Translations under genes and position numbers: made by a program
Origin: a bacterium
GTDB lineage: Bacteria > Blakebacterota > Blakebacteria > Blakebacterales > Blakebacteraceae
DNA length: 12,499 bases
Direction of reading: 5' to 3'
Assembly: GCA_025774205.1 (NCBI GenBank)
Contig: JALGWK010000141.1
Span: forward strand, 1 to 12,499
Notes under the pieces: generated by a model
Told to the model about the DNA's origin: nothing
Database searches by the model: none
What the model saw: the letters and a program-made list of their open reading frames with translations, nothing else
Part shown: piece by piece, positions 1-9,535 of the stretch
Layout of the letters: every line of letters begins with the position of its first letter
Numbering within the stretch: position 1 is the first letter of the stretch

Positions 1-897
1 GCCTTCTTCCTCGCGCAGGGAGACCGATACTACGTGGTCGCTTTTACGCTCACTGAAGGTGCAGGCGTCGATCGCGTTCGAGATCAGATTGGCCAGGCAG
101 GTGTGGATCCCCTCCTCATCGAGGGGTGCAGGCACGATCCCAGCCTCGATATGCACGTTCAGGTAGATTCCCGATTGCGCGGCCCGTTCCGCGTAGAGTT
201 CCACCACCTCTGCAACCGGACGGGCAGGATCAATCATCGAGACTGTGGCTTCCCGACCCCGAGCGAAATCGAGGAACTCTTTCACGAACTGGGAGATCCG
301 GGTTACGTTCTCCTCCACCATCAACCAGCCGCGGGCGATTCTCTCGTCGTCTGCCTGCTCGATACCGGTGTTGACTGCATAGAGTCCGCCCTCGAGTCCC
401 ATGAGCACGTTCTTGATCCCATGAGCGATACCGGCCACGGTTTCCCCCACCGCGGCCAGGCGCTGGGCCTCCCGTTTCTCATGCTCGAGCCGCTTCACCT
501 GGGTGATGTCGGTGGACATCTCGATGACGTATGGAATAGTTCCGTCCGGCTGCACGATGGGGACCATCTGCACCAGATAATGCGACTTGCCGCCATGACG
601 ATAGGTGCCCTCTTCCTCTCTGGTCCGAACCTTGCCATCGGCGAAGGTCTCTGAGGCCGCGCATCGCTTGCACCGTTCCGACCGACCTTTGTAGACCTCG
701 AAACACTCACGCCCCTTCCACTCCCCATACTCCTCGGTGAAGCGCTGATTCCCCTCGACGATCCGGTAGTCGGGACTGATCACACTGATGGAGACAGGGA
801 CCTCGTCGAACAGGTGCTGCCGGAGCCATTCCCGACTTGCTGCATCGAGCATGTCATTGCCAGACCTGTCTCCTCCTGATCCGGTATCCGGTGTCAT
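1..897 (-). CDS. PAS-domain sensor histidine kinase, 3' end beyond the window
   Basis: The frame is open from the ATG at 897 to the left edge, giving 299 residues of a cytosolic-looking kinase with no membrane segment. Residues 25-135 form a PAS domain containing a cysteine set (C65, C76, C79). A short coiled linker and a HisKA-type helix follow, with the phosphoacceptor in AGIAHGIKN (H159). An N-box (HTCLANLISNAIDAC, about 265-279) then starts the ATPase domain; the later G boxes lie outside the window. The start sits 17 bases after the stop of the cytochrome fusion gene, with a purine-rich GAAAGGAA upstream, so it is the last visible gene of the hmc-like operon. Regulators also close the known hmc operon (rrf1, rrf2). 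No receiver-domain partner is visible; it may lie further left. The signal is unknown, but the cysteines suggest a redox or metal-cluster cue (inference). Confidence 0.9.
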   Translation of the reverse strand, partial: MTPDTGSGGDRSGNDMLDAASREWLRQHLFDEVPVSISVISPDYRIVEGNQRFTEEYGEWKGRECFEVYKGRSERCKRCAASETFADGKVRTREEEGTYRHGGKSHYLVQMVPIVQPDGTIPYVIEMSTDITQVKRLEHEKREAQRLAAVGETVAGIAHGIKNVLMGLEGGLYAVNTGIEQADDERIARGWLMVEENVTRISQFVKEFLDFARGREATVSMIDPARPVAEVVELYAERAAQSGIYLNVHIEAGIVPAPLDEEGIHTCLANLISNAIDACTFSERKSDHVVSVSLREEEG

Positions 898-914
898 GAT
901 GGCATCAGTTCCTT

Positions 915-2864
915 TCAATGCCCGTCTCCATTCTGGACAATCAGACGGGAGGTATTCCTGACGGGAGCCATCTCCTCAAGCATCGGGCCATAGTCGGCAT
1001 CGTGGCACGCGTCACACCGCTCGAGGAGGTCTGCGAACCGTCCCGGTTCCTCCCGGGCTCTCCGTTTGTGACAGGTGACGCAGAGATCGTGCATCGCATC
1101 CATGTACCCGGGCGCGTCCTGCCAGCGGGGATCGGGACGTTTGATGATGACGCTGGTTGCTTCAGGATTCAGGTGACACTCGACGCATGCAGTGGAGGTC
1201 TCGGAATCCTTGACCTCTCGTCCGTCAGGGTGACACTCGGTACAGCCATCGTTGCCATTGAGCTTCTGCACATGCAGGGTGTGATCGAAGAGCGATACCG
1301 GTTCGTACATGTCCCGATGACACTCGAAACATGCAGAGTTGAGGTCATAGGGAAGATCGAGATGGTGACACAATCGGCAGGAATCATCCCCCCCCTCCCG
1401 ATCGACATGGCCGGCATGGTTGAAGAGAACGAGCGTTTCATTCCGGTTTCCATTGATGGCGAAAAGCGGTATCGGGCTCTCGGCGCTCAGAGGCCGATCT
1501 CCCGGCTCACACATCTCAAGAGCGTGGAAATCCCCGGCCTGACGGGCGACGGAGAATCCCTCCACCATCCGTGGGGTTGAGACCGGTGTCCGTACCGGTT
1601 CGGCACCACTGACCGGCAGGAAGAACAGGGCCGCTACCGCGGCCATGAGGGCCACCAGTGAGTACCGTCGGGGTGAAGCCTGTTCACTCGGCATCAGATC
1701 GTGCAGTGTCGCCGCGTCATGGCTCGGCTTCCCCGGTTTGACGTGGGCCGGTTCGTCATAGACCTTCAGGTGCTCGACAAAGAAGATGAAGACCAGGATA
1801 CAGCAGGAGACGATTCCAACACTCACGGCGATCTCCGCCCAGCTCGGGAAATATCCCCACCCCTCGGGCCGGGCGAAGGCGACGATACTCATATCGAGCC
1901 GGTAGCCGATCATGCCCAGGATGGTGAGACCGGCACAGATCGCCATCCCGGTGATGGAGGAGCGCACCCGACGGAAAAGCAGGAGCGTTGCCGGCAGGAT
2001 CGCGGCCATGCCGAGTTCGAAAAAGAAGAGGAAACTCTGCCACGAACCATCGAACGCCAACCCCAGATCGCCACGGAGAGTGAGATCTCCCAGACGCAGG
2101 ATCACATAGAACCAGAGCACGACTGAGGCGGCGATCCCCATGCCCGGCAGGAGGTCCTTCCTGACTTTGTGATCGAAGAACCAGGACGTCAGCAGCCCTT
2201 CCAGGACCACCATCATCAGACCGAGGCCGATCGCCGAGATGAAGTAGAAGATATAGATGATGGAGGAGTACCAGAGCGGGTGCAGTCTTGCAGGTGAAAT
2301 CAGAAAGAGCGAACCGAGCGAAGACTGATGCAGTGTCGAGAGGACAATGCCGGCGATCACCAGGGGAATGGTGATCTTCCTCAGGAATTTCAGGAACCGC
2401 TGGAATATCGGACGACCAAAGAGGGGATGCTCAAGAACCACCGGCGCGAATTCGAGGGAGAGTACCGTCAGGTAGAGCATCACGCAGACGGCCACTTCGA
2501 ACAGCACCGAGTGATGCTGCCAGTAGATCATGGGATGCCAGATGTTCCACGGCAGGCCCAGATCGTAGAGGAGTCCCACCGCGACGGCAAAATACCCCAG
2601 CAGGGCGGTCAGGATTGCCGGGCGCACGCACGACCGGTATTTTTCAAGACCGAAGATGTATACGGTCGCGGCCATGACGAATCCGCCAGCGGCCAGCGCC
2701 ACTCCCGCCATCACGTCGAATCCGATCCACAAACCCCACGGCGACACATCTGACAGATTCGTGACCGCGCCAAGCCCCCGGGTGAACCGGACCATCGAGA
2801 CAGCTGCCAGAACCCCCACGGACGCCCACAGGAACGATTTCAGGATCGTCAGTCGATTAAGCAT
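915..2864 (-). CDS. hmcC: Fusion of NrfD/HmcC-type membrane subunit with hexaheme cytochrome c
   Basis: The protein has 649 residues. Residues 1-370 are a polytopic NrfD/HmcC-like domain of about ten hydrophobic segments, the family that exchanges electrons with quinones or relays them across the membrane. A hydrophilic linker (371-400) leads to an extra hydrophobic segment (402-418) ending in VSGAEP, which resembles a Sec signal/anchor. Residues 430-649 carry six CxxCH heme-c motifs (C496, C512, C541, C560, C595, C617). LFNHAGH and LFDHTLH stretches are typical of multiheme class III/Hmc-type cytochromes. If the first domain ends in the cytoplasm, the extra segment would place the hemes in the periplasm. 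In the classical Hmc complex the cytochrome (HmcA) and HmcC are separate proteins. The start overlaps the stop of the ferredoxin gene by 8 bases, which suggests translational coupling. The domain calls are firm; the electron partner is inferred. Confidence 0.93.
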   Translation of the reverse strand: MLNRLTILKSFLWASVGVLAAVSMVRFTRGLGAVTNLSDVSPWGLWIGFDVMAGVALAAGGFVMAATVYIFGLEKYRSCVRPAILTALLGYFAVAVGLLYDLGLPWNIWHPMIYWQHHSVLFEVAVCVMLYLTVLSLEFAPVVLEHPLFGRPIFQRFLKFLRKITIPLVIAGIVLSTLHQSSLGSLFLISPARLHPLWYSSIIYIFYFISAIGLGLMMVVLEGLLTSWFFDHKVRKDLLPGMGIAASVVLWFYVILRLGDLTLRGDLGLAFDGSWQSFLFFFELGMAAILPATLLLFRRVRSSITGMAICAGLTILGMIGYRLDMSIVAFARPEGWGYFPSWAEIAVSVGIVSCCILVFIFFVEHLKVYDEPAHVKPGKPSHDAATLHDLMPSEQASPRRYSLVALMAAVAALFFLPVSGAEPVRTPVSTPRMVEGFSVARQAGDFHALEMCEPGDRPLSAESPIPLFAINGNRNETLVLFNHAGHVDREGGDDSCRLCHHLDLPYDLNSACFECHRDMYEPVSLFDHTLHVQKLNGNDGCTECHPDGREVKDSETSTACVECHLNPEATSVIIKRPDPRWQDAPGYMDAMHDLCVTCHKRRAREEPGRFADLLERCDACHDADYGPMLEEMAPVRNTSRLIVQNGDGH

Positions 2865-3627
2865 TGGTCTCTTCGTCCTCCCTCGAGGAAAGCTTCATGC
2901 GGCGGTTGATCACCCAGAACGCGCCGCTCATGAAGGCGCCCATTCCAAGGATCATCGGCGGTACCTTGCTCAGAGACTGCCAGGTCAGATCAGGTAGTGC
3001 CTCGGTGCCCAGATCCGGTTTCCAGGAGAGGAAATCGAGCGGGATATCGGAGATATACAGGACCGAGGTCCCGCCTATTTCATGTTCCCCGAATATCCGG
3101 TCGATGTATGTGTCGGGATCGCCCGCGATACGCCGATCGGCCTCAGCCAGCAGGTCGGGGCGGCTTCCAAAGACCGTTGCCTCCTGAGGGCAGGCTTTCA
3201 CACACGCCGGGATCCCGCCTTCGATGAGCAGGTGATGACACATGGTGCATTTGTGCACAAACGGTATTGCCCGGTCCCAGTCGTAGCGGGGGATCCCGTA
3301 CGGACAGGCGAGCATGCAGTAGCGACATCCCATGCACCGATCTGCGTCGTAGATCACCGGTCCCTCGGGCGTCTTCTGCATGGCGCCCACCAGACAGGCA
3401 CTCACGCAGGCCGGTTCAAGGCAGTGACGACACTGCTGCAGGACGAAGTGGTCCTCCGGCCGACGGTGCACCGTACAGTTTCGCGTGGCTGAGAGGGCAT
3501 CGATCGCGCCCTGTCCGCGCCACGGCCGATCCTTGCCGAGACCGTTCTCTTCCTTGCACGCAGCGACGCATTCTTCACAGCCGACGCAGCGGGTCGTATC
3601 GATGAGGATCGCTGGAGAGTCAATCAT
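2857..3627 (-). CDS. hmcB: HmcB-like ferredoxin subunit, four [4Fe-4S] clusters, C-terminal membrane anchor
   Basis: The protein has 256 residues with four cysteine quartets: C14/17/20/24, C66/69/74/78, C98/101/104/108 and C127/130/142/146. This is the pattern of the DMSO-reductase B/HmcB/NrfC ferredoxins that wire electrons between a membrane subunit and a soluble partner. There is no N-terminal signal peptide. A single hydrophobic helix (about 223-240, flanked by NRR) near the C-terminus would tether it to the membrane, and its side of the membrane is not obvious. CTMCHH at 127-132 happens to match a heme-c motif, but it lies in the fourth cluster and the protein lacks an export signal. The start codon forms an ATGA overlap with the stop of the cytochrome b gene, and its end overlaps the NrfD-cytochrome fusion, so it sits in the middle of a coupled operon. 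Confidence 0.93.
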   Translation of the reverse strand: MIDSPAILIDTTRCVGCEECVAACKEENGLGKDRPWRGQGAIDALSATRNCTVHRRPEDHFVLQQCRHCLEPACVSACLVGAMQKTPEGPVIYDADRCMGCRYCMLACPYGIPRYDWDRAIPFVHKCTMCHHLLIEGGIPACVKACPQEATVFGSRPDLLAEADRRIAGDPDTYIDRIFGEHEIGGTSVLYISDIPLDFLSWKPDLGTEALPDLTWQSLSKVPPMILGMGAFMSGAFWVINRRMKLSSREDEETNA

Positions 3628-4331
3628 ATCGGTTCATTCGCTTTCCCGAGGGCTTCACCCACCCTGCGTCCCGATTCAGGAGGGAAGTGCCAGGCGAGTT
3701 CTGAGATGATCTGGGTGCCCGGCAGGAGCACCATGTGACTGATCTTGGTCAGCGGGATCAGGAAGAGGAGGAGATCACCGCTCATTACGTGGAGGAACAG
3801 CATGAACTGGTGTGAGAAGGGGTTCCAGGCCGGGTGCATCACCAGGAATCCCGTGGCGAAGGGTATCGCGACGATCAGCGGCATCGCAAAGTCCTGGAAC
3901 CGGCTCAGTTTCCGTGAGGCCTTGAAAACGATCCGCTGGATTACGATCGTGACGGCCGCTATGACCGCGATGATGGTCAAGGCCGTGGAGAGTCCGTTGG
4001 GCAGGGCCGGCCAGCCGAAGCCGAGGCTCTGCTTCCAGAGCGCTATGTGCCCGGCCAGGAAGATCGGCACAAGGATGACCGCAATGTGGAAGATGAGCGT
4101 GTTCAGGCCGAAGAGCAGCCGGTTCTTCAGACCTTGAGTCAGGAACATCCAGCCGAGTGAAGCGCGCACAACCTGACGCACGGGGATGGTTTTGTCGCCG
4201 GCCCGGTTCCAGGTGCGAACGATCCCCCACAGGGTGATGGCCACATGGCGACCCAGTCCGAGTACCAGGAAGGCCAGCCCCGCCCAGAAGACAGGCCCTC
4301 GCAGCCATTGAAGCAGAACGTCTATCGTCAT
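3624..4331 (-). CDS. hmcE: HmcE-like cytochrome b (NarI-type) membrane subunit
   Basis: The protein has 235 residues from the ATG at 4331. About five hydrophobic helices can be seen (roughly 13-35, 77-97, 113-135, 147-166, 177-205). Histidines in or near helices (H29, H82, H95, H181, H199) could ligate b hemes, as in the NarI/HmcE/DsrM family of quinone-reactive subunits. A GTG in the same frame at 4340 is possible, but an ideal AGGAGG about ten bases upstream of 4331 favours the ATG. The gene begins five bases after the stop of the HmcF-like gene and ends in an ATGA overlap with the ferredoxin gene. Expected role: passing electrons between the membrane quinone pool and the HmcF-like iron-sulfur protein. 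Family assignment is by architecture and neighbours; the exact heme ligands are inferred. Confidence 0.85.
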   Translation of the reverse strand: MTIDVLLQWLRGPVFWAGLAFLVLGLGRHVAITLWGIVRTWNRAGDKTIPVRQVVRASLGWMFLTQGLKNRLLFGLNTLIFHIAVILVPIFLAGHIALWKQSLGFGWPALPNGLSTALTIIAVIAAVTIVIQRIVFKASRKLSRFQDFAMPLIVAIPFATGFLVMHPAWNPFSHQFMLFLHVMSGDLLLFLIPLTKISHMVLLPGTQIISELAWHFPPESGRRVGEALGKANEPI

Positions 4332-4336
4332 CGCAC

Positions 4337-5224
4337 TCACTCCTCCTCTCCGGCAGTCCCGGGTTCCGGGTCACCATCGTCCCCACCCGGGACCGGGACT
4401 CCGAAGTCGATCACCTCGAGCAGCAGGTCGTGCAGCCCGACGACCCGGACCTCCTCCAGATCGTTGTCCTCGCAGATCTCCTTGAGCTGTTTCTTGCAGT
4501 TCGCGCAGGGAGAGACGAGAAGGTGCGCGCCGGTGGCGCGGATCTGGTCCGCTTTGCGCTTGCCCATGGGTCCGGTACGGAATTTCCGGATCTCGTCGAT
4601 CGAAACCGTCCCCCCGCCCCCCCCACAGCAGTAGTTCTCTGTACGGTTCGGCGTCATTTCGACAAAGTCCTCGCAGATCGCTTTCAGGATCTCACGGGGT
4701 TCTTCGGTTATCCTGCCGCTTCGCGCGATATTGCACGGGTCGTGGTAGGTGACCCGCTCCTTGATCTTCTCCGGTTTGAGCGGTATCTCGCCGGCCATGA
4801 GTTTCTCATGAGCGTACTGGAGACAGTTGATCACAGGAGGCGCGTCGGGACCGCAGAAGGTCGGGACATACCAGGCGGAACGGGTCGCGTGGCCGCATTC
4901 ACCGACCAGTATTTTATCCCCGTTCAGACGGTGGACCTCGGTGACGACATTGTTGACGATGCGCTCCATCATCCGGTCGCTGTAGAACAGCCCGTAGTTG
5001 ATGCCGTCGTAGTTCCCGGTCCCGATCGTCCACGATCCGCCGGTCACATGCATCACGGCGGCGTTGCCCATCAGGGTGTCCGCCTCGAGCAGGTAGTCTG
5101 ACACGGCCGGGAAGAACACGAACTCAGCGTCCTCGATATCGAAGGGGAAGGTGATCTTCACGCCATAGATCTCCTCGAGTTCTTCCTCGAGAAACTCACA
5201 GGTGTCCTTGAGCGCCGGCACCGG
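4337..5224 (-). CDS. hmcF: HmcF/HdrD-like CCG-domain iron-sulfur protein, downstream part (after frameshift)
   Basis: This is the C-terminal 295 residues of the protein whose N-terminal half is at 5158-5697. It contains the cysteine-rich CCG chemistry of HdrD/HmcF/DsrK: GECGHA (C110 of this part), HDPCNIARSG (C164), NYCCGGGGG (C199/C200) and PCANCKK (C240, C243). These motifs bind a noncubane [4Fe-4S] cluster in heterodisulfide reductase. The first in-frame ATG is at 5341, but residues between 5341 and about 5224 are an out-of-frame shadow of the upstream half, so real coding begins near PVPALKD at 5224. No start or ribosome site is visible there. Expected role: the cytosolic terminus of the Hmc-like complex, acting on a thiol/disulfide or similar two-electron partner. 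It is followed five bases later by the cytochrome b gene. Confidence 0.85.
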   Translation of the reverse strand, partial: PVPALKDTCEFLEEELEEIYGVKITFPFDIEDAEFVFFPAVSDYLLEADTLMGNAAVMHVTGGSWTIGTGNYDGINYGLFYSDRMMERIVNNVVTEVHRLNGDKILVGECGHATRSAWYVPTFCGPDAPPVINCLQYAHEKLMAGEIPLKPEKIKERVTYHDPCNIARSGRITEEPREILKAICEDFVEMTPNRTENYCCGGGGGTVSIDEIRKFRTGPMGKRKADQIRATGAHLLVSPCANCKKQLKEICEDNDLEEVRVVGLHDLLLEVIDFGVPVPGGDDGDPEPGTAGEEE

Positions 5225-5697
5225 AGCAGCGCTTTCGGGATCACGTCGATCTCGGAGAGGAGGTACCGGGCCAGATGGGTGACCAGGCCGTGGTCGATAC
5301 CGAGCGGACAGAAGGCCTTGCACCTCCGGCAGGCCGTGCACCGGTAATATTCGTCAGCCATCTCATCGAGGTAATCATCGGTCAGGATGAAGCCTCTGGT
5401 GAGCCGTGCCTTCAGGATCCCCGACTGGGTGAAATATCTGCGATAGACACGCAGAAGGAGTTCGGAACGGTGACAGGGGATGTCACGTTCTTCCTGAGTG
5501 GCCTCATACAGCTGACACGCTGACGCGCAACGGCCGCATTTGGTGCTCAGGCGCGAGTATATGTCCAGTGCCGAGCTGTAGTTGCCATGCTCCAGCACGG
5601 CCGCGAACGCCACAAGGAACTTTCGCGGTCTGTCCGTGACATCGAGGGCTTTCTGTTCCACATAGTAGCTGTATGTATCCCTGGTTGTAGTACCCAC
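5158..5697 (-). CDS. hmcF: HmcF/HdrD-like iron-sulfur protein, upstream part (ends in frameshift)
   Basis: This N-terminal half carries a two-[4Fe-4S] ferredoxin domain: C54/57/61 with C75, and C120/123/126/130, counted from the GTG at 5697. Sense coding runs to PKALL at 5226-5224, then degenerates into about 22 unrelated residues before a stop at 5158. A -1 shift at CTCCGG joins it to the CCG half at 4337-5224. The same frame stays open upstream to an ATG at 5814, but that part overlaps the NifX-like gene in another frame. The GTG at 5697, 13 bases after that gene's stop and near GAGGG, is the better start. Homologues as I remember them have about 20 extra residues at the join, so a small deletion is likelier than a programmed slip; no slippery heptamer is obvious. 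Confidence 0.8.
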   Translation of the reverse strand: MGTTTRDTYSYYVEQKALDVTDRPRKFLVAFAAVLEHGNYSSALDIYSRLSTKCGRCASACQLYEATQEERDIPCHRSELLLRVYRRYFTQSGILKARLTRGFILTDDYLDEMADEYYRCTACRRCKAFCPLGIDHGLVTHLARYLLSEIDVIPKALLRCRRSRTPVSFSRKNSRRSMA

Positions 5698-5710
5698 TGA
5701 TCGACATCCC

Positions 5711-6010
5711 TCATTTCGATGGCAGTAATGGGAAATCCGGGCCGGGTGGTGAGGCATCCTCGTGTCCCGAAACGAGCTGTCCCCTGAGGTAGAGCTCCAG
5801 GAGTGAGTCAACACTCCCCGCTACCCAGGAGATCACCTCGATCCCGCTCCCCCGGAGGCACTCCTCCAGTACGTCCTGGACACCACCGCAGATTATGGTA
5901 CCGACTCCCTGATCCCTGAGCAGACGGATCCTGTCGAACGGTTCCTTGCTCCGAAGCGGGAAGTCGACCTGGTTTGTGACATGCCCTTCGGTGACGGTGT
6001 AGATCGTCAT
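5711..6010 (-). CDS. Small NifX/NifB-type (iron-molybdenum cofactor-binding fold) protein
   Basis: The protein has 99 residues from the only ATG. RIRLLRDQGVGTIICGGV and the later GIEVISWVAGSVDSLLE match the dinitrogenase iron-molybdenum cofactor-biosynthesis (NifX-like) fold, which is also common as stand-alone proteins beside redox and hydrogenase genes where no nitrogenase is present. It is the first gene of the hmc-like operon, 13 bases before the HmcF-like start. Its role here is unknown; binding or insertion of an iron-sulfur cluster, or regulation, would fit. Oddly, the frame upstream of the ATG (6011-6058) reads AISGEDVAPCVGHCAL, which looks like the missing first beta strand of this family, yet no start codon lies in front of it. 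The ribosome site before the ATG is poor. The true N-terminus is therefore uncertain. Confidence 0.75.
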   Translation of the reverse strand: MTIYTVTEGHVTNQVDFPLRSKEPFDRIRLLRDQGVGTIICGGVQDVLEECLRGSGIEVISWVAGSVDSLLELYLRGQLVSGHEDASPPGPDFPLLPSK

Positions 6011-6056
6011 CAGGGCGCAATGACCTACACAGGGGGCAACGTCTTCTCCCGATATC

Positions 6057-6071
6057 GCAAAATGTGGGCCA
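6057..6071 (-). promoter_or_regulatory. Sigma-54 (-24/-12) promoter for the hmc-like operon
   Basis: The minus strand reads TGGCCCACATTTTGC: GG and GC separated by exactly ten bases, with the TTGC core of sigma-54 promoters. Transcription would start near 6045, leaving a leader of about 35 bases before the ATG at 6010. Two dyads centred about 126 and 159 bases upstream of that start are well placed for a sigma-54 activator, and such an activator is encoded immediately upstream. Caveat: this stretch overlaps a possible 5' extension of the NifX-like gene. Confidence 0.65.
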
Positions 6072-6162
6072 CTCCGGGAAACACCCTTATGATGGAGTTA
6101 ATTACTTATCAGACAATGGATTACAGAAGAAGAACTGATGTGTTCATGGATATATAGGATAT

Positions 6163-6180
6163 TATTTCAATAATGAAACA
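6163..6180. promoter_or_regulatory. Proximal activator-binding dyad (candidate UAS)
   Basis: Read on the minus strand the site is TGTTTCATTATTGAAATA. It is an imperfect 7-4-7 dyad with one mismatch from TGTTTCA-N4-TGAAACA. It lies 33 bp (about three helical turns) from the perfect copy at 6196-6213 and about 126 bases upstream of the predicted sigma-54 start site. The likely ligand is the Fis-type HTH of the neighbouring activator (inference). Confidence 0.55.
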
Positions 6181-6195
6181 TAATGAGTGTTTCAT

Positions 6196-6213
6196 TGTTT
6201 CATCGATGAAACA
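6196..6213. promoter_or_regulatory. Distal activator-binding dyad (candidate UAS), perfect palindrome
   Basis: TGTTTCATCGATGAAACA is a perfect 18-bp palindrome, extending to 22 bp (6194-6215) with its outer bases. It touches the stop codon of the sigma-54 activator gene and lies about 159 bases upstream of the predicted hmc-side start. An additional TGTTTCA half-site precedes it at 6188-6194, which pairs with AATGAAACA at 6172-6180 as a second inverted arrangement. It could also fold as a hairpin at the end of the activator transcript, but no T-tract follows, so an operator is preferred. Confidence 0.6.
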
Positions 6214-6214
6214 A

Positions 6215-7579
6215 TTACTGCTGTATAGTAAAGTCTTCCGGATTGATATCGTGCTTCTTGATTTTCCGCCACAGCGTCGTTCTGCTGATGCCCAGTTCCT
6301 CCGCCGTTCGGCCCTGATGTCCATTATTGCGGCTGAGAGCGATCTGAATTGTGTGCGCCTCTCCCAGCTGCAGCTGGGATACAGAATCCTCGTTAACAAT
6401 CCGGGACAGAGAACCCCGATGCAGCTTGAGATCTTCCGGCAGGTGCCGGATCTCGATGAATCCGTTGTGACAGAGGACAAAGCAGTATTCGATAATGTTC
6501 TCCAGCTCGCGGGCATTACCGGGGAACTCGTAACGCATCAGGATCTCCATGACCTCGGGTGTGACACCCTGGATCCGCTTTCCCCGCTTGGCGTTGAAGC
6601 GCTGAATGAAATGCTCGATGAGATAGGGTATGTCCTGACGACGCACCGCCAGACGGAAGTAGAGATCGTCCCGGAATTGCCCTCGGCTCACCATATCGGG
6701 TAGGTCCCGGTTGGTCGCCGCCACGATGCGGACGTTTGCCGGGAGAGGCTCAATGCCACCGAGAGGTTCATACTGACGTTCCTGGAGCAGGCGGAGCAGT
6801 TTGGCCTGTGTTTCCAGTGGCAGGTCTCCGATCTCGTCGAAGAAGACGGTTCCACCCTCGGCCAGGGCGATGCGGCCCGGTTTGTCATTTTTGGCGTCAG
6901 TGAAGGCACCCTTCTTGTATCCGAAGAGTTCCGATTCAAAGAGATTGGCGGGCAGGGTCCCGCAATTCACCACCACATACGGCTGCTTGCCGCGGGGACT
7001 GAGATTGTGAGTCGCTCGTGCCAGAAGCTCTTTGCCCGAACCACTCGGCCCCTCAATCAGAACGGTGCTCTCACTGGTTGCGATGTCGGGCAGGATGGCA
7101 AAGATCTTCTGGAAGGCCTCGCTCTTGCCGATAATGTCCTCAAATGTATACTGGCTCTGTATCTCCCTGCGGAGCTGCTCGATCTGGCCCAGATCCCGGA
7201 AGGTCTCAACCGCGCCGAGGAGGGTTCCATCCTCGTCATGCAGTACCGCGGTGCTGATGCTGATGGGGATAGCTTTCCCCCGCTGATTCAGGATCCGGGC
7301 TGGCAGATCGATGACCTCCTGCCCTGTTTCGAGCGACTTCCGGATCGCGCAGCCCTCCTCACAGATGTTCGCGTGGAAGACATCGCAGCACTTCTTCCCG
7401 ATGGCCCGATCGGCGGACACCCCGGTGATCCGCTCAGCCGCCCTGTTGAATGAGGTGATCTTCCAGTCATTGTCGACCGTGAACACCCCGTCGGCTACGC
7501 AACGGAGGACCGACTCGAAAAATTGAGCCTGGCTGCTCGTCGATGAAGCGCTCGAATCCATCCTCTGTTCATCTGCCAT
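6215..7579 (-). CDS. Sigma-54-dependent transcriptional activator (PAS-AAA+-Fis HTH)
   Basis: The protein has 454 residues from the ATG at 7579. A GTG nine bases upstream is also open, but GGGTGA is better spaced to the ATG. An N-terminal PAS domain (about 18-130) holds a cysteine cluster (C64, C65, C73, C77). The AAA+ domain has Walker A GPSGSGKE (177-184), a GAFTDA version of the GAFTGA sigma-54 contact loop (224-229), Walker B GGTVFFDE (243-250) and FRDDLYFRL with the likely arginine fingers. A Fis-type HTH (about 423-443) closes it. No receiver domain is present, so control is by the PAS ligand or redox state rather than phosphorylation. Oddly, FRLAVRRQDIP lacks the VxLPPLRER stretch nearly always found between these blocks, an in-frame gap of about ten residues. 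It lies between two sigma-54 promoters and probably drives both. Confidence 0.92.
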   Translation of the reverse strand: MADEQRMDSSASSTSSQAQFFESVLRCVADGVFTVDNDWKITSFNRAAERITGVSADRAIGKKCCDVFHANICEEGCAIRKSLETGQEVIDLPARILNQRGKAIPISISTAVLHDEDGTLLGAVETFRDLGQIEQLRREIQSQYTFEDIIGKSEAFQKIFAILPDIATSESTVLIEGPSGSGKELLARATHNLSPRGKQPYVVVNCGTLPANLFESELFGYKKGAFTDAKNDKPGRIALAEGGTVFFDEIGDLPLETQAKLLRLLQERQYEPLGGIEPLPANVRIVAATNRDLPDMVSRGQFRDDLYFRLAVRRQDIPYLIEHFIQRFNAKRGKRIQGVTPEVMEILMRYEFPGNARELENIIEYCFVLCHNGFIEIRHLPEDLKLHRGSLSRIVNEDSVSQLQLGEAHTIQIALSRNNGHQGRTAEELGISRTTLWRKIKKHDINPEDFTIQQ

Positions 7580-7675
7580 GATGCTCACCCGAATACTGTT
7601 TCACAGACGTGCAATATCAGTTCAAGGGTACAGATTGGTTACCCTGCTGACAATCAAAGTCCATCGCGGTCGTTA

Positions 7676-7692
7676 TTGGCCCGATGTTTGCA
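7676..7692 (+). promoter_or_regulatory. Sigma-54 (-24/-12) promoter facing the hydrogenase side
   Basis: TTGGCCCGATGTTTGCA differs from the sigma-54 consensus YTGGCACG-N4-TTGCW at one position and has the exact GG-N10-GC spacing. The start site would be near 7703, ahead of the microprotein at 7748. Upstream, a TGTTTCA half-site at 7597-7603 (about 103 bases before the start) resembles half of the hmc-side dyads. A weak dyad AGGGTA-N9-TACCCT (7625-7645) lies between them. Whether the transcript continues into the hydrogenase genes 980 bases away is not visible; I see no clear terminator in between. Confidence 0.65.
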
Positions 7693-7747: not shown

Positions 7748-7843
7748 ATGTGTGTACTCCTGGTCGTGGTCAGTTTCATCCTCATAGCGACGCTGAGTTG
7801 GTGCATTCAGACGAGGCGGGCGGGTGATCGCCCAGGACGGTGA
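7748..7843 (+). CDS. Predicted 31-residue single-pass membrane microprotein
   Basis: The ATG at 7748 has a good ribosome site (AGGGAGAAAG) and lies about 45 bases after the predicted sigma-54 start. The peptide begins MCVLLVVVSFILIATLSWC, a single hydrophobic helix (2-19), followed by a basic tail (QTRRAGDRPGR) that would face the cytoplasm. No family is recognised. The frame may be interrupted: the next frame continues from about 7824 to 7919 with a convincing acidic tail, so the original product may have been about 57 residues. Small helices of this kind can serve as membrane anchors or regulators of larger complexes, but no function can be assigned. Confidence 0.5.
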   Translation: MCVLLVVVSFILIATLSWCIQTRRAGDRPGR

Positions 7844-8683: not shown

Positions 8684-9535
8684 ATGCAGGTAGTCTACCG
8701 GCAGCAGCTTACCCAGGAAATAGAAGAGCTCAAGAAGGAATACGGCTCTGACCGTTCAGCGTTGATGCCTATCCTCCATGCGATGCAGGAGCGGTACCGT
8801 TTCATCCCCGACCGCGCCCTCCAGACGGTGGCACACGCGCTCGACATCCACCCGGCCGAAGTCGCGGCGGTGGCGAGTTTCTACAGCTTCTTCGAAACGC
8901 AGGAGAAACTCGGCAAGTACGTCATCCGTCTCTGTCAGACGATCTCCTGCGACATGGCGGCCAAGGACAATGTGGCCCGCCAGCTCGAGAACGAACTGGG
9001 CATCAGGTTCGGTGAAACGACCAACGACGGGATGTTCACCCTGCGATACACCAACTGCCTCGGTCTATGCGATCAGGGTCCGGCGATGCTTGTGAATGAG
9101 CGGCTCTTCGCGAAGGTCACTCCGGAGAAGGTTCATCGCATCCTCAAGGATGCGAGGCGGGATTTCTTCATCCCATCGAACGTGCGCCGGCACGGTCCGC
9201 TTCTCGATCACGGGATCGAACCGGTCGAAGCCCTCAGGACGGCTCTGGATCGACAGCCAACGGAGATCATCGCCGCCATTGATACCGCCATGCTGAAGGG
9301 ACGAGGCGGGGCGGGCTTCCCGACCGCTCTCAAATGGCAACTCGCGGCCGAGGATCCGGATGAGCAGAAGTACGTGGTCTGGCGGGCTTCCCGACCGCTC
9401 TCAAATGGCAACTCGCGGCCGAGGATCCGGATGAGCAGAAGTACGTGGTCTGTAACGCTGATGAAGGCGAGCCGGGCACCTTCAAGGATCGCTATCTCCT
9501 GTCGGAACATTTCGAGACCGTGCTGGATGGGATGA
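8684..9535 (+). CDS. NuoE-NuoF (HndA-HndC type) fusion, N-terminal part, broken by a 71-bp duplication
   Basis: Start ATG at 8684 with GAGAGGG seven bases upstream. Residues 1-155 are a NuoE/HndA thioredoxin-like [2Fe-2S] domain with ligands C84, C89, C125 and C129. Without a stop, the frame runs into the beginning of a NuoF/HndC domain: GRGGAGFPTALKW (206-218) is the nucleotide/FMN-binding glycine-rich loop. After KYVV (232) a tandem duplication shifts the frame, and the remaining 51 residues to 9535 are meaningless. Deleting one 71-bp copy gives a single 560-residue NuoE-NuoF protein ending at 10437. Role: the diaphorase arm of an NAD(P)-linked, possibly electron-bifurcating, [FeFe] hydrogenase. 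The 166 bases upstream hold a small hairpin (GGGTG-CT-CACCC, 8617-8628) but no clear -24/-12 element. Confidence 0.88.
   Translation: MQVVYRQQLTQEIEELKKEYGSDRSALMPILHAMQERYRFIPDRALQTVAHALDIHPAEVAAVASFYSFFETQEKLGKYVIRLCQTISCDMAAKDNVARQLENELGIRFGETTNDGMFTLRYTNCLGLCDQGPAMLVNERLFAKVTPEKVHRILKDARRDFFIPSNVRRHGPLLDHGIEPVEALRTALDRQPTEIIAAIDTAMLKGRGGAGFPTALKWQLAAEDPDEQKYVVWRASRPLSNGNSRPRIRMSRSTWSVTLMKASRAPSRIAISCRNISRPCWMG
9310..9452 (+). repeat. Perfect 71-bp tandem duplication inside the NuoE-NuoF gene
   Basis: Bases 9310-9381 are identical to 9381-9452 (offset 71). Because 71 is not a multiple of three, it moves the reading frame from that of 8684 to that of 9445. The perfect identity means a very recent event or an unmerged overlap of 71 bases between two contigs. 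Confidence 0.95.

Follow-up and report, generated by a model that had tools for sequence, protein, structure and literature searches.

The closest described systems to the locus analysed here come from Desulfovibrio vulgaris. The DVU3142-Ohc regulon places the gene for a one-component sigma-54 activator beside the operon of a transmembrane electron-transfer complex, with conserved activator sites and a -24/-12 promoter predicted by comparative genomics (PMC4641369). The same Desulfovibrio survey describes TGT-N9/11/12-ACA motif groups, a DVU2956 site with three conserved half-sites shown by EMSA, and activators whose alike binding domains need not share motifs (PMC4641369). The orp operons of D. 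vulgaris likewise have a one-component activator, DVU2106, and palindromic sites upstream of sigma-54 promoters, with IHF acting between the sites and the promoter (PMC3897727). We consider it very probable that a spacer in the window (the whole stretch of DNA that was analysed, 12,499 nucleotides) is the cis-regulatory unit of another such local one-component sigma-54 regulon, in which the adjacent PAS-AAA-Fis activator would bind an array of half-sites and open the promoter of an Hmc/Tmc-like operon.

The genes concerned lie on the minus strand in the order activator, gap, PF02579 protein, HmcF-like, TmcC/HmcE-like, HmcB-like, HmcC/NrfD-cytochrome fusion and histidine kinase. The activator, by its Pfam domains a PAS-AAA(sigma54)-Fis enhancer-binding protein, is encoded at 6215..7588, with a true start that may be the ATG at 7579. 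It combines an AAA+ sigma-54 interaction domain (PF00158, E 1e-63), whose loop reads GAFTDA, with a C-terminal Fis-type helix-turn-helix (PF02954, E 3.5e-12), whose recognition helix is S435-R436-T-T-L-W (SRTTLWR). The GAFTDA loop is a variant of the GAFTGA type and is listed as functional (PMC4641369). Among the activators of the same genome that have a readable helix, it alone carries SRTTLWR. The first operon gene (5711..6010) encodes a PF02579 (NifX/ORP-like) protein, which in NCBIfam matches the C-terminal (ORP) part of MrpORP best. It is followed by an HmcF/DsrK/TmcB-like Fe-S protein in two pieces, an N-terminal part (5158..5814) and a C-terminal part with a CCG domain (4337..5341), a TmcC/HmcE-like membrane subunit (3624..4340), an HmcB-like ferredoxin subunit (2857..3627), an HmcC/NrfD-like membrane subunit fused to a multihaem cytochrome c domain (915..2864) and a PAS sensor histidine kinase that is incomplete at the window edge (1..918) and that most relatives keep at the end of the operon. 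Scores fall below the Hmc equivalog cut-offs for HmcB (261 vs 420 bits), HmcC (318 vs 550), HmcE (115 vs 275) and HmcF (162, for the C-terminal part only, vs 750), and HmcA has a weak match only, on the cytochrome domain of the HmcC fusion. The complex is therefore a relative of the Hmc/Tmc type rather than Hmc itself.

The gap between activator and operon is 204 bp long, and within it lies a 51-bp composite upstream activating sequence of five half-sites (6163..6213, minus), which in the direction of the operon reads TGTTTCA-N4-TGAAACA-N1-TGAAACA-N7-TGTTTCA-N4-TGAAATA. A sequence-only reading of this DNA had proposed a complete sigma-54 control unit here, made of a GG-N10-GC promoter and two dyads. 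Its coordinates and geometry hold: the distal dyad is perfect (6196-6213, minus, TGTTTCATCGATGAAACA, 0 mismatches), the proximal dyad has one mismatch (6163-6180, minus, TATTTCAATAATGAAACA), their centres are 33 bp apart, and from an expected +1 near 6046 they lie at about -126 and -159, the whole array spanning about -117 to -167. The control unit is borne out in its promoter, its array and the presence of RpoN in the genome (PF04552, 208.8 bits, over the cut-off), while its enhancer has to be redrawn as an array of five half-sites, not two dyads only. The additional half-site (6188-6194; TGAAACA on the minus strand, TGTTTCA on the plus strand) was absent from that reading and is retained in the compared syntenic TGTTTCA-type loci, including L035 and L037/L080, where the distal dyad is degenerate in its right half.

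At one mismatch or fewer, TGTTTCA-N4-TGAAACA has two sites in the 3.09-Mb genome, both in this spacer, and a reversed-pattern control gave no match in the genome at the same threshold. A wider regulon was considered and set aside: beyond the two spacer dyads no site with one mismatch or fewer occurs elsewhere in this genome; stray single sites are present in other genomes. At three mismatches or fewer, two dyads occur in the window where 0.28 would be expected, and 5 of 200 shuffled sequences yield as many; the core of three half-sites, TGAAACA-N7-TGTTTCA-N4-TGAAAYA, to which the one at 6188-6194 belongs, has exactly one match and appears in none of 200 shuffles. The promoter (6056-6071, minus, TGGCCCACATTTTGCG, TGGCCC-N5-TTGC, GG-N10-GC) is by its match alone within chance in the window, where six such elements occur at two mismatches or fewer against 4.0 expected, and this would suit a reading in which chance repeats happen to stand beside a chance GG-N10-GC match. 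To that reading we assign a negligible probability, given that the sites are unique in the genome, that the three-half-site pattern is found in no shuffle, and that conservation in relatives already refutes chance. A significant -24/-12 element is present in the same spacer at all eight close-clade loci (the window and seven relatives tested; combined p about 1e-9) and between the array and the first gene at 22 of 27 more distant, sister-clade loci. It is this conserved position across loci, not the strength of the match in the window, that supports the promoter call. The activator sites, unique in the genome and conserved, also fall within the range of about 80-200 bp upstream that is seen in sigma-54-dependent regulons. 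Between the array and the promoter there is a weak IHF-like site (6107..6119, plus, TATCAGACAATGG; one mismatch, shuffle P 0.21, not significant alone).

A second sigma-54-like match, at 7677-7692 (plus, TGGCCCGATGTTTGCA), is the best of the window and was set aside, as it is not conserved in the sister species (L033). It is oriented towards a 31-residue membrane ORF at 7748, not towards the activator, and this ORF looks like the beginning of a transporter-like ORF at the equivalent place in L033.

Relatives were gathered by a genome scan with the HmcC-cytochrome protein and by activator searches, which gave about 110 distinct activator loci. The sister species has half-sites at the identical five offsets, 0/11/19/33/44; L150 and L076/L079 show the same offsets wherever half-sites survive, L035 retains 0/19/33/44, and in L080 (the L037 locus) the spacing is off by one base. 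The array spacing recurs in the sister species and in three more distant genomes, and the order activator, dyad array, promoter, operon is preserved at the sister locus and at more distant syntenic loci. Syntenic relatives had been named beforehand as the place where the interpretation could fail; both the dyads and the -24/-12 element are present there, and the interpretation is not refuted. The same activator and operon are also found in about 28 genomes of a neighbouring phylum, with arrays of TGTTGCA/TGCAACA in which the spacing is altered and repeated half-sites are still kept.

The array also abuts the end of the activator gene. The distal dyad extends to a 22-bp perfect palindrome (6194-6215), which shares one base with the TAA stop codon of the activator (6217-6215), and it is in this one-base overlap that the dyad touches the stop codon, as had been noted earlier. 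This abutment recurs, since in several relatives (L149, L150, L151 and L080) the TGA stop codon itself opens a half-site. Palindromic repeats that begin at a stop codon might act as RNA, terminating or attenuating transcription where the activator gene ends, which we regard as highly improbable: the dyads coincide with no terminator-like site, Rfam gave no match, the half-sites form an array that includes a direct repeat and keeps a 33-bp register, the TGTTGCA clade changes the spacing and not the repetition of half-sites, and the array of L044 stands between divergent genes instead of following the activator.

Counting an array as present where at least two exact half-sites cluster upstream of the operon, we find it at 12 of 12 operon loci with an adjacent activator and at none of about 24 operon loci that lack an activator nearby and have usable upstream sequence. 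Across the loci compared, the array goes with the activator and not with the operon. The activator at L144 is a paralog (47% identical) that shares the SRTTLWR helix; the operon after it is another one, headed by a PF02579 protein, and TGTTTCA repeats followed by TGGCACGGAGCTTGCT are again present. These observations bear on whether the dyads are instead the operator of another DNA-binding regulator that controls the redox operon, with the adjacent activator as a bystander. In favour of such a regulator, the operon carries its own histidine kinase, which must have a partner; we nevertheless hold this reading to be unlikely, as the array is missing from operons without an adjacent activator, accompanies a paralogous activator at another operon, and has a variable base that tracks one recognition-helix residue of the activator (residue 435, considered below). 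Co-occurrence, the L144 paralog and the covariation of residue 435 together argue for the earlier assignment of the dyads to the adjacent PAS-AAA-Fis activator as its binding motif.

Other activator paralogs have GTCGCA half-sites. Paralogous activators with the helix HKSTLFR occur with GTCGCA dyads at L009, L097, L134, L135, L136 and L140, and a PF02579-like gene was detected just downstream of the HKSTLFR activators at L009, L097, L134, L135 and L140; judged by these features, HKSTLFR activators with GTCGCA dyads are a family of similar local regulons. The lineage with the helix SRNTLWR (L044, L092, L154 and L155) has mixed sites (TGTTGCA...TGAAACA, TGAGACA...TGTCTC) upstream of the activator, which in L044 is divergent from the operon. 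Near the activator start in the window there is one half-site, at about 7598-7604, and clearer upstream sites are limited to some relatives (L080, L144 and L131); autoregulation of the activator is not claimed on this basis.

The variable base of the half-site covaries with a single position of the recognition helix. Among the 422 aligned activator columns, column 435 alone separates the half-site classes completely: counting only activators with a clear array, Ser is found at 435 in 8/8 of the TGTTTCA type and in 0/44 of the others (36 TGTTGCA and 8 GTCGCA), which have His, Asp, Glu or Asn. Ser435 (codon at 6284..6286, minus) and Arg436 align with Asn84 and Arg85 of Fis. The crystal structures of Fis with DNA show Arg85 reading a conserved G at +/-7 and Asn84 turned towards the base at +/-4, where it clashes with a bottom-strand thymine (PMC4784862). 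The variable base of GTT[T/G]CA is exactly three positions inward of the invariant G and so corresponds to the base that Asn84 of Fis faces. Residue 435 is probably the amino acid that reads the variable base. The covariation supports such a code and does not prove it, because relatedness leaves two independent Ser/His contrasts only in a tree built without the helix, for which a sign test is not significant. The TGTTTCA-type loci L080 and L144 also contain some TGTTGCA half-sites, and several Ser-type proteins (e.g. L010, L138, L139 and L173) have no clear array.

A broader proposal, on which we see the balance as even, is that in the family of activators with a three-cysteine PAS domain, which spans several phyla and often stands beside PF02579-led redox operons, the residue before the helix-starting Arg/Lys (Ser versus His/Asp/Glu/Asn) determines the fourth base in GTT[T/G]CA, with enhancer and activator having co-evolved and being re-targetable by one substitution. 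The match between activator and DNA would be reduced to one candidate residue and is thus testable by a single mutation. For most sigma-54 activators the binding sites are, to our knowledge, unknown. This family yields a motif, an operon as its target and, as the candidate for specificity, one residue consistent with the Fis-DNA structures, so that prediction of a motif from protein sequence becomes testable.

For the regulon as a whole, we infer that the activator would bind the five-half-site array through its Fis-type helix (Ser435-Arg436), oligomerise on it, which is the standard route for sigma-54 activators, make contact by looping with the sigma-54 RNA polymerase on the -24/-12 element, and open the promoter of the Hmc/Tmc-like redox operon downstream of it at the expense of ATP. 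IHF may aid the looping, as it does for orp in D. vulgaris (PMC3897727), with the caveat that the site here is not significant. The PAS domain would be switched on first, probably through three conserved cysteines that respond to redox, metal or thiol state. These residues, Cys67/76/80 (C-x8-C-x3-C; window about 7349-7390, minus), are found in 84 of 85 aligned family activators from several phyla, the remaining row being gapped. Their conservation suggests a redox, metal or thiol signal, and C-x8-C-x3-C is a possible metal or Fe-S site; what the domain senses is a matter of speculation. The tie that the sequence-only reading drew between the redox complex and the PAS signal accordingly keeps its conjectural standing and gains one new support, these cysteines. 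The histidine kinase of the operon likewise has a cysteine-rich PAS domain. With the proposed regulon, an Hmc/Tmc-like electron-transfer complex of uncultured lineages would gain a regulator that probably senses redox state or metal.

Comparison with L033 also reveals damage in the contig. Relative to the sister locus, it is without 30 bp in the AAA+ domain of the activator (window 6644; 10 conserved residues), 52 bp immediately after the -12 element (window 6053), 49 bp in the HmcF-like gene (window 5225) and 87 bp at about 2880. The second of these deletions removes the RBS, the start codon and the first codons of the first operon gene, which is intact in L033 as a 120-aa form, and the third damages the frame and splits the HmcF-like protein. 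An exact 71-bp tandem duplication at about 9310-9455 breaks the frame of a NuoF-like gene that belongs to an NADH-dependent [FeFe] hydrogenase (group A6) cluster. Deletions and a duplication in a 527-contig draft genome point to assembly error, which is probably the source of the indels; they could also reflect decay of the locus, and this copy may be inactive if the sequence is right. The damage leaves the dyads and the promoter unaffected, both being shared by the sister locus, and it is the sister locus that should be used for statements on the leader of the transcript and on how active the copy is.

Given the regulons already known at the level of prediction, namely DVU3142-Ohc, the TGT-N9/11/12-ACA groups and the three-half-site EMSA site, the locus would be a further one-component sigma-54 regulon. 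It is likened to DVU3142-Ohc by arrangement, not by motif, and differs in that the gene order there is divergent and the complex is another one, OhcBAC (PMC4641369). The window dyad has the form TGT-N12-ACA and thus falls under the Desulfovibrio motif groups, while the text of PMC4641369 has neither the full TGTTTCA half-site nor the register of five half-sites nor the link between residue and base; the register, the motif and the link were likewise not found in the open-access papers searched. The likeness to DVU2106-orp lies in the loop and the layout: the activators share the GAFTDA variant (Table 1 of PMC4641369), and the window operon opens with a PF02579 gene that best matches the ORP part of MrpORP. 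The orp operons differ in being divergent and negatively autoregulated, and the window has no significant counterpart of their IHF site (PMC3897727). With Fis itself the correspondence is at the level of residues, as GISRTTLWRK of the activator aligns with GINRGTLRKK, the conserved G being read by Arg and the adjacent residue facing the base 3 bp further in (PMC4784862). Fis recognises DNA by its shape and has little sequence specificity (PMC4784862), whereas in the activator of the window the adjacent residue appears to set specificity.
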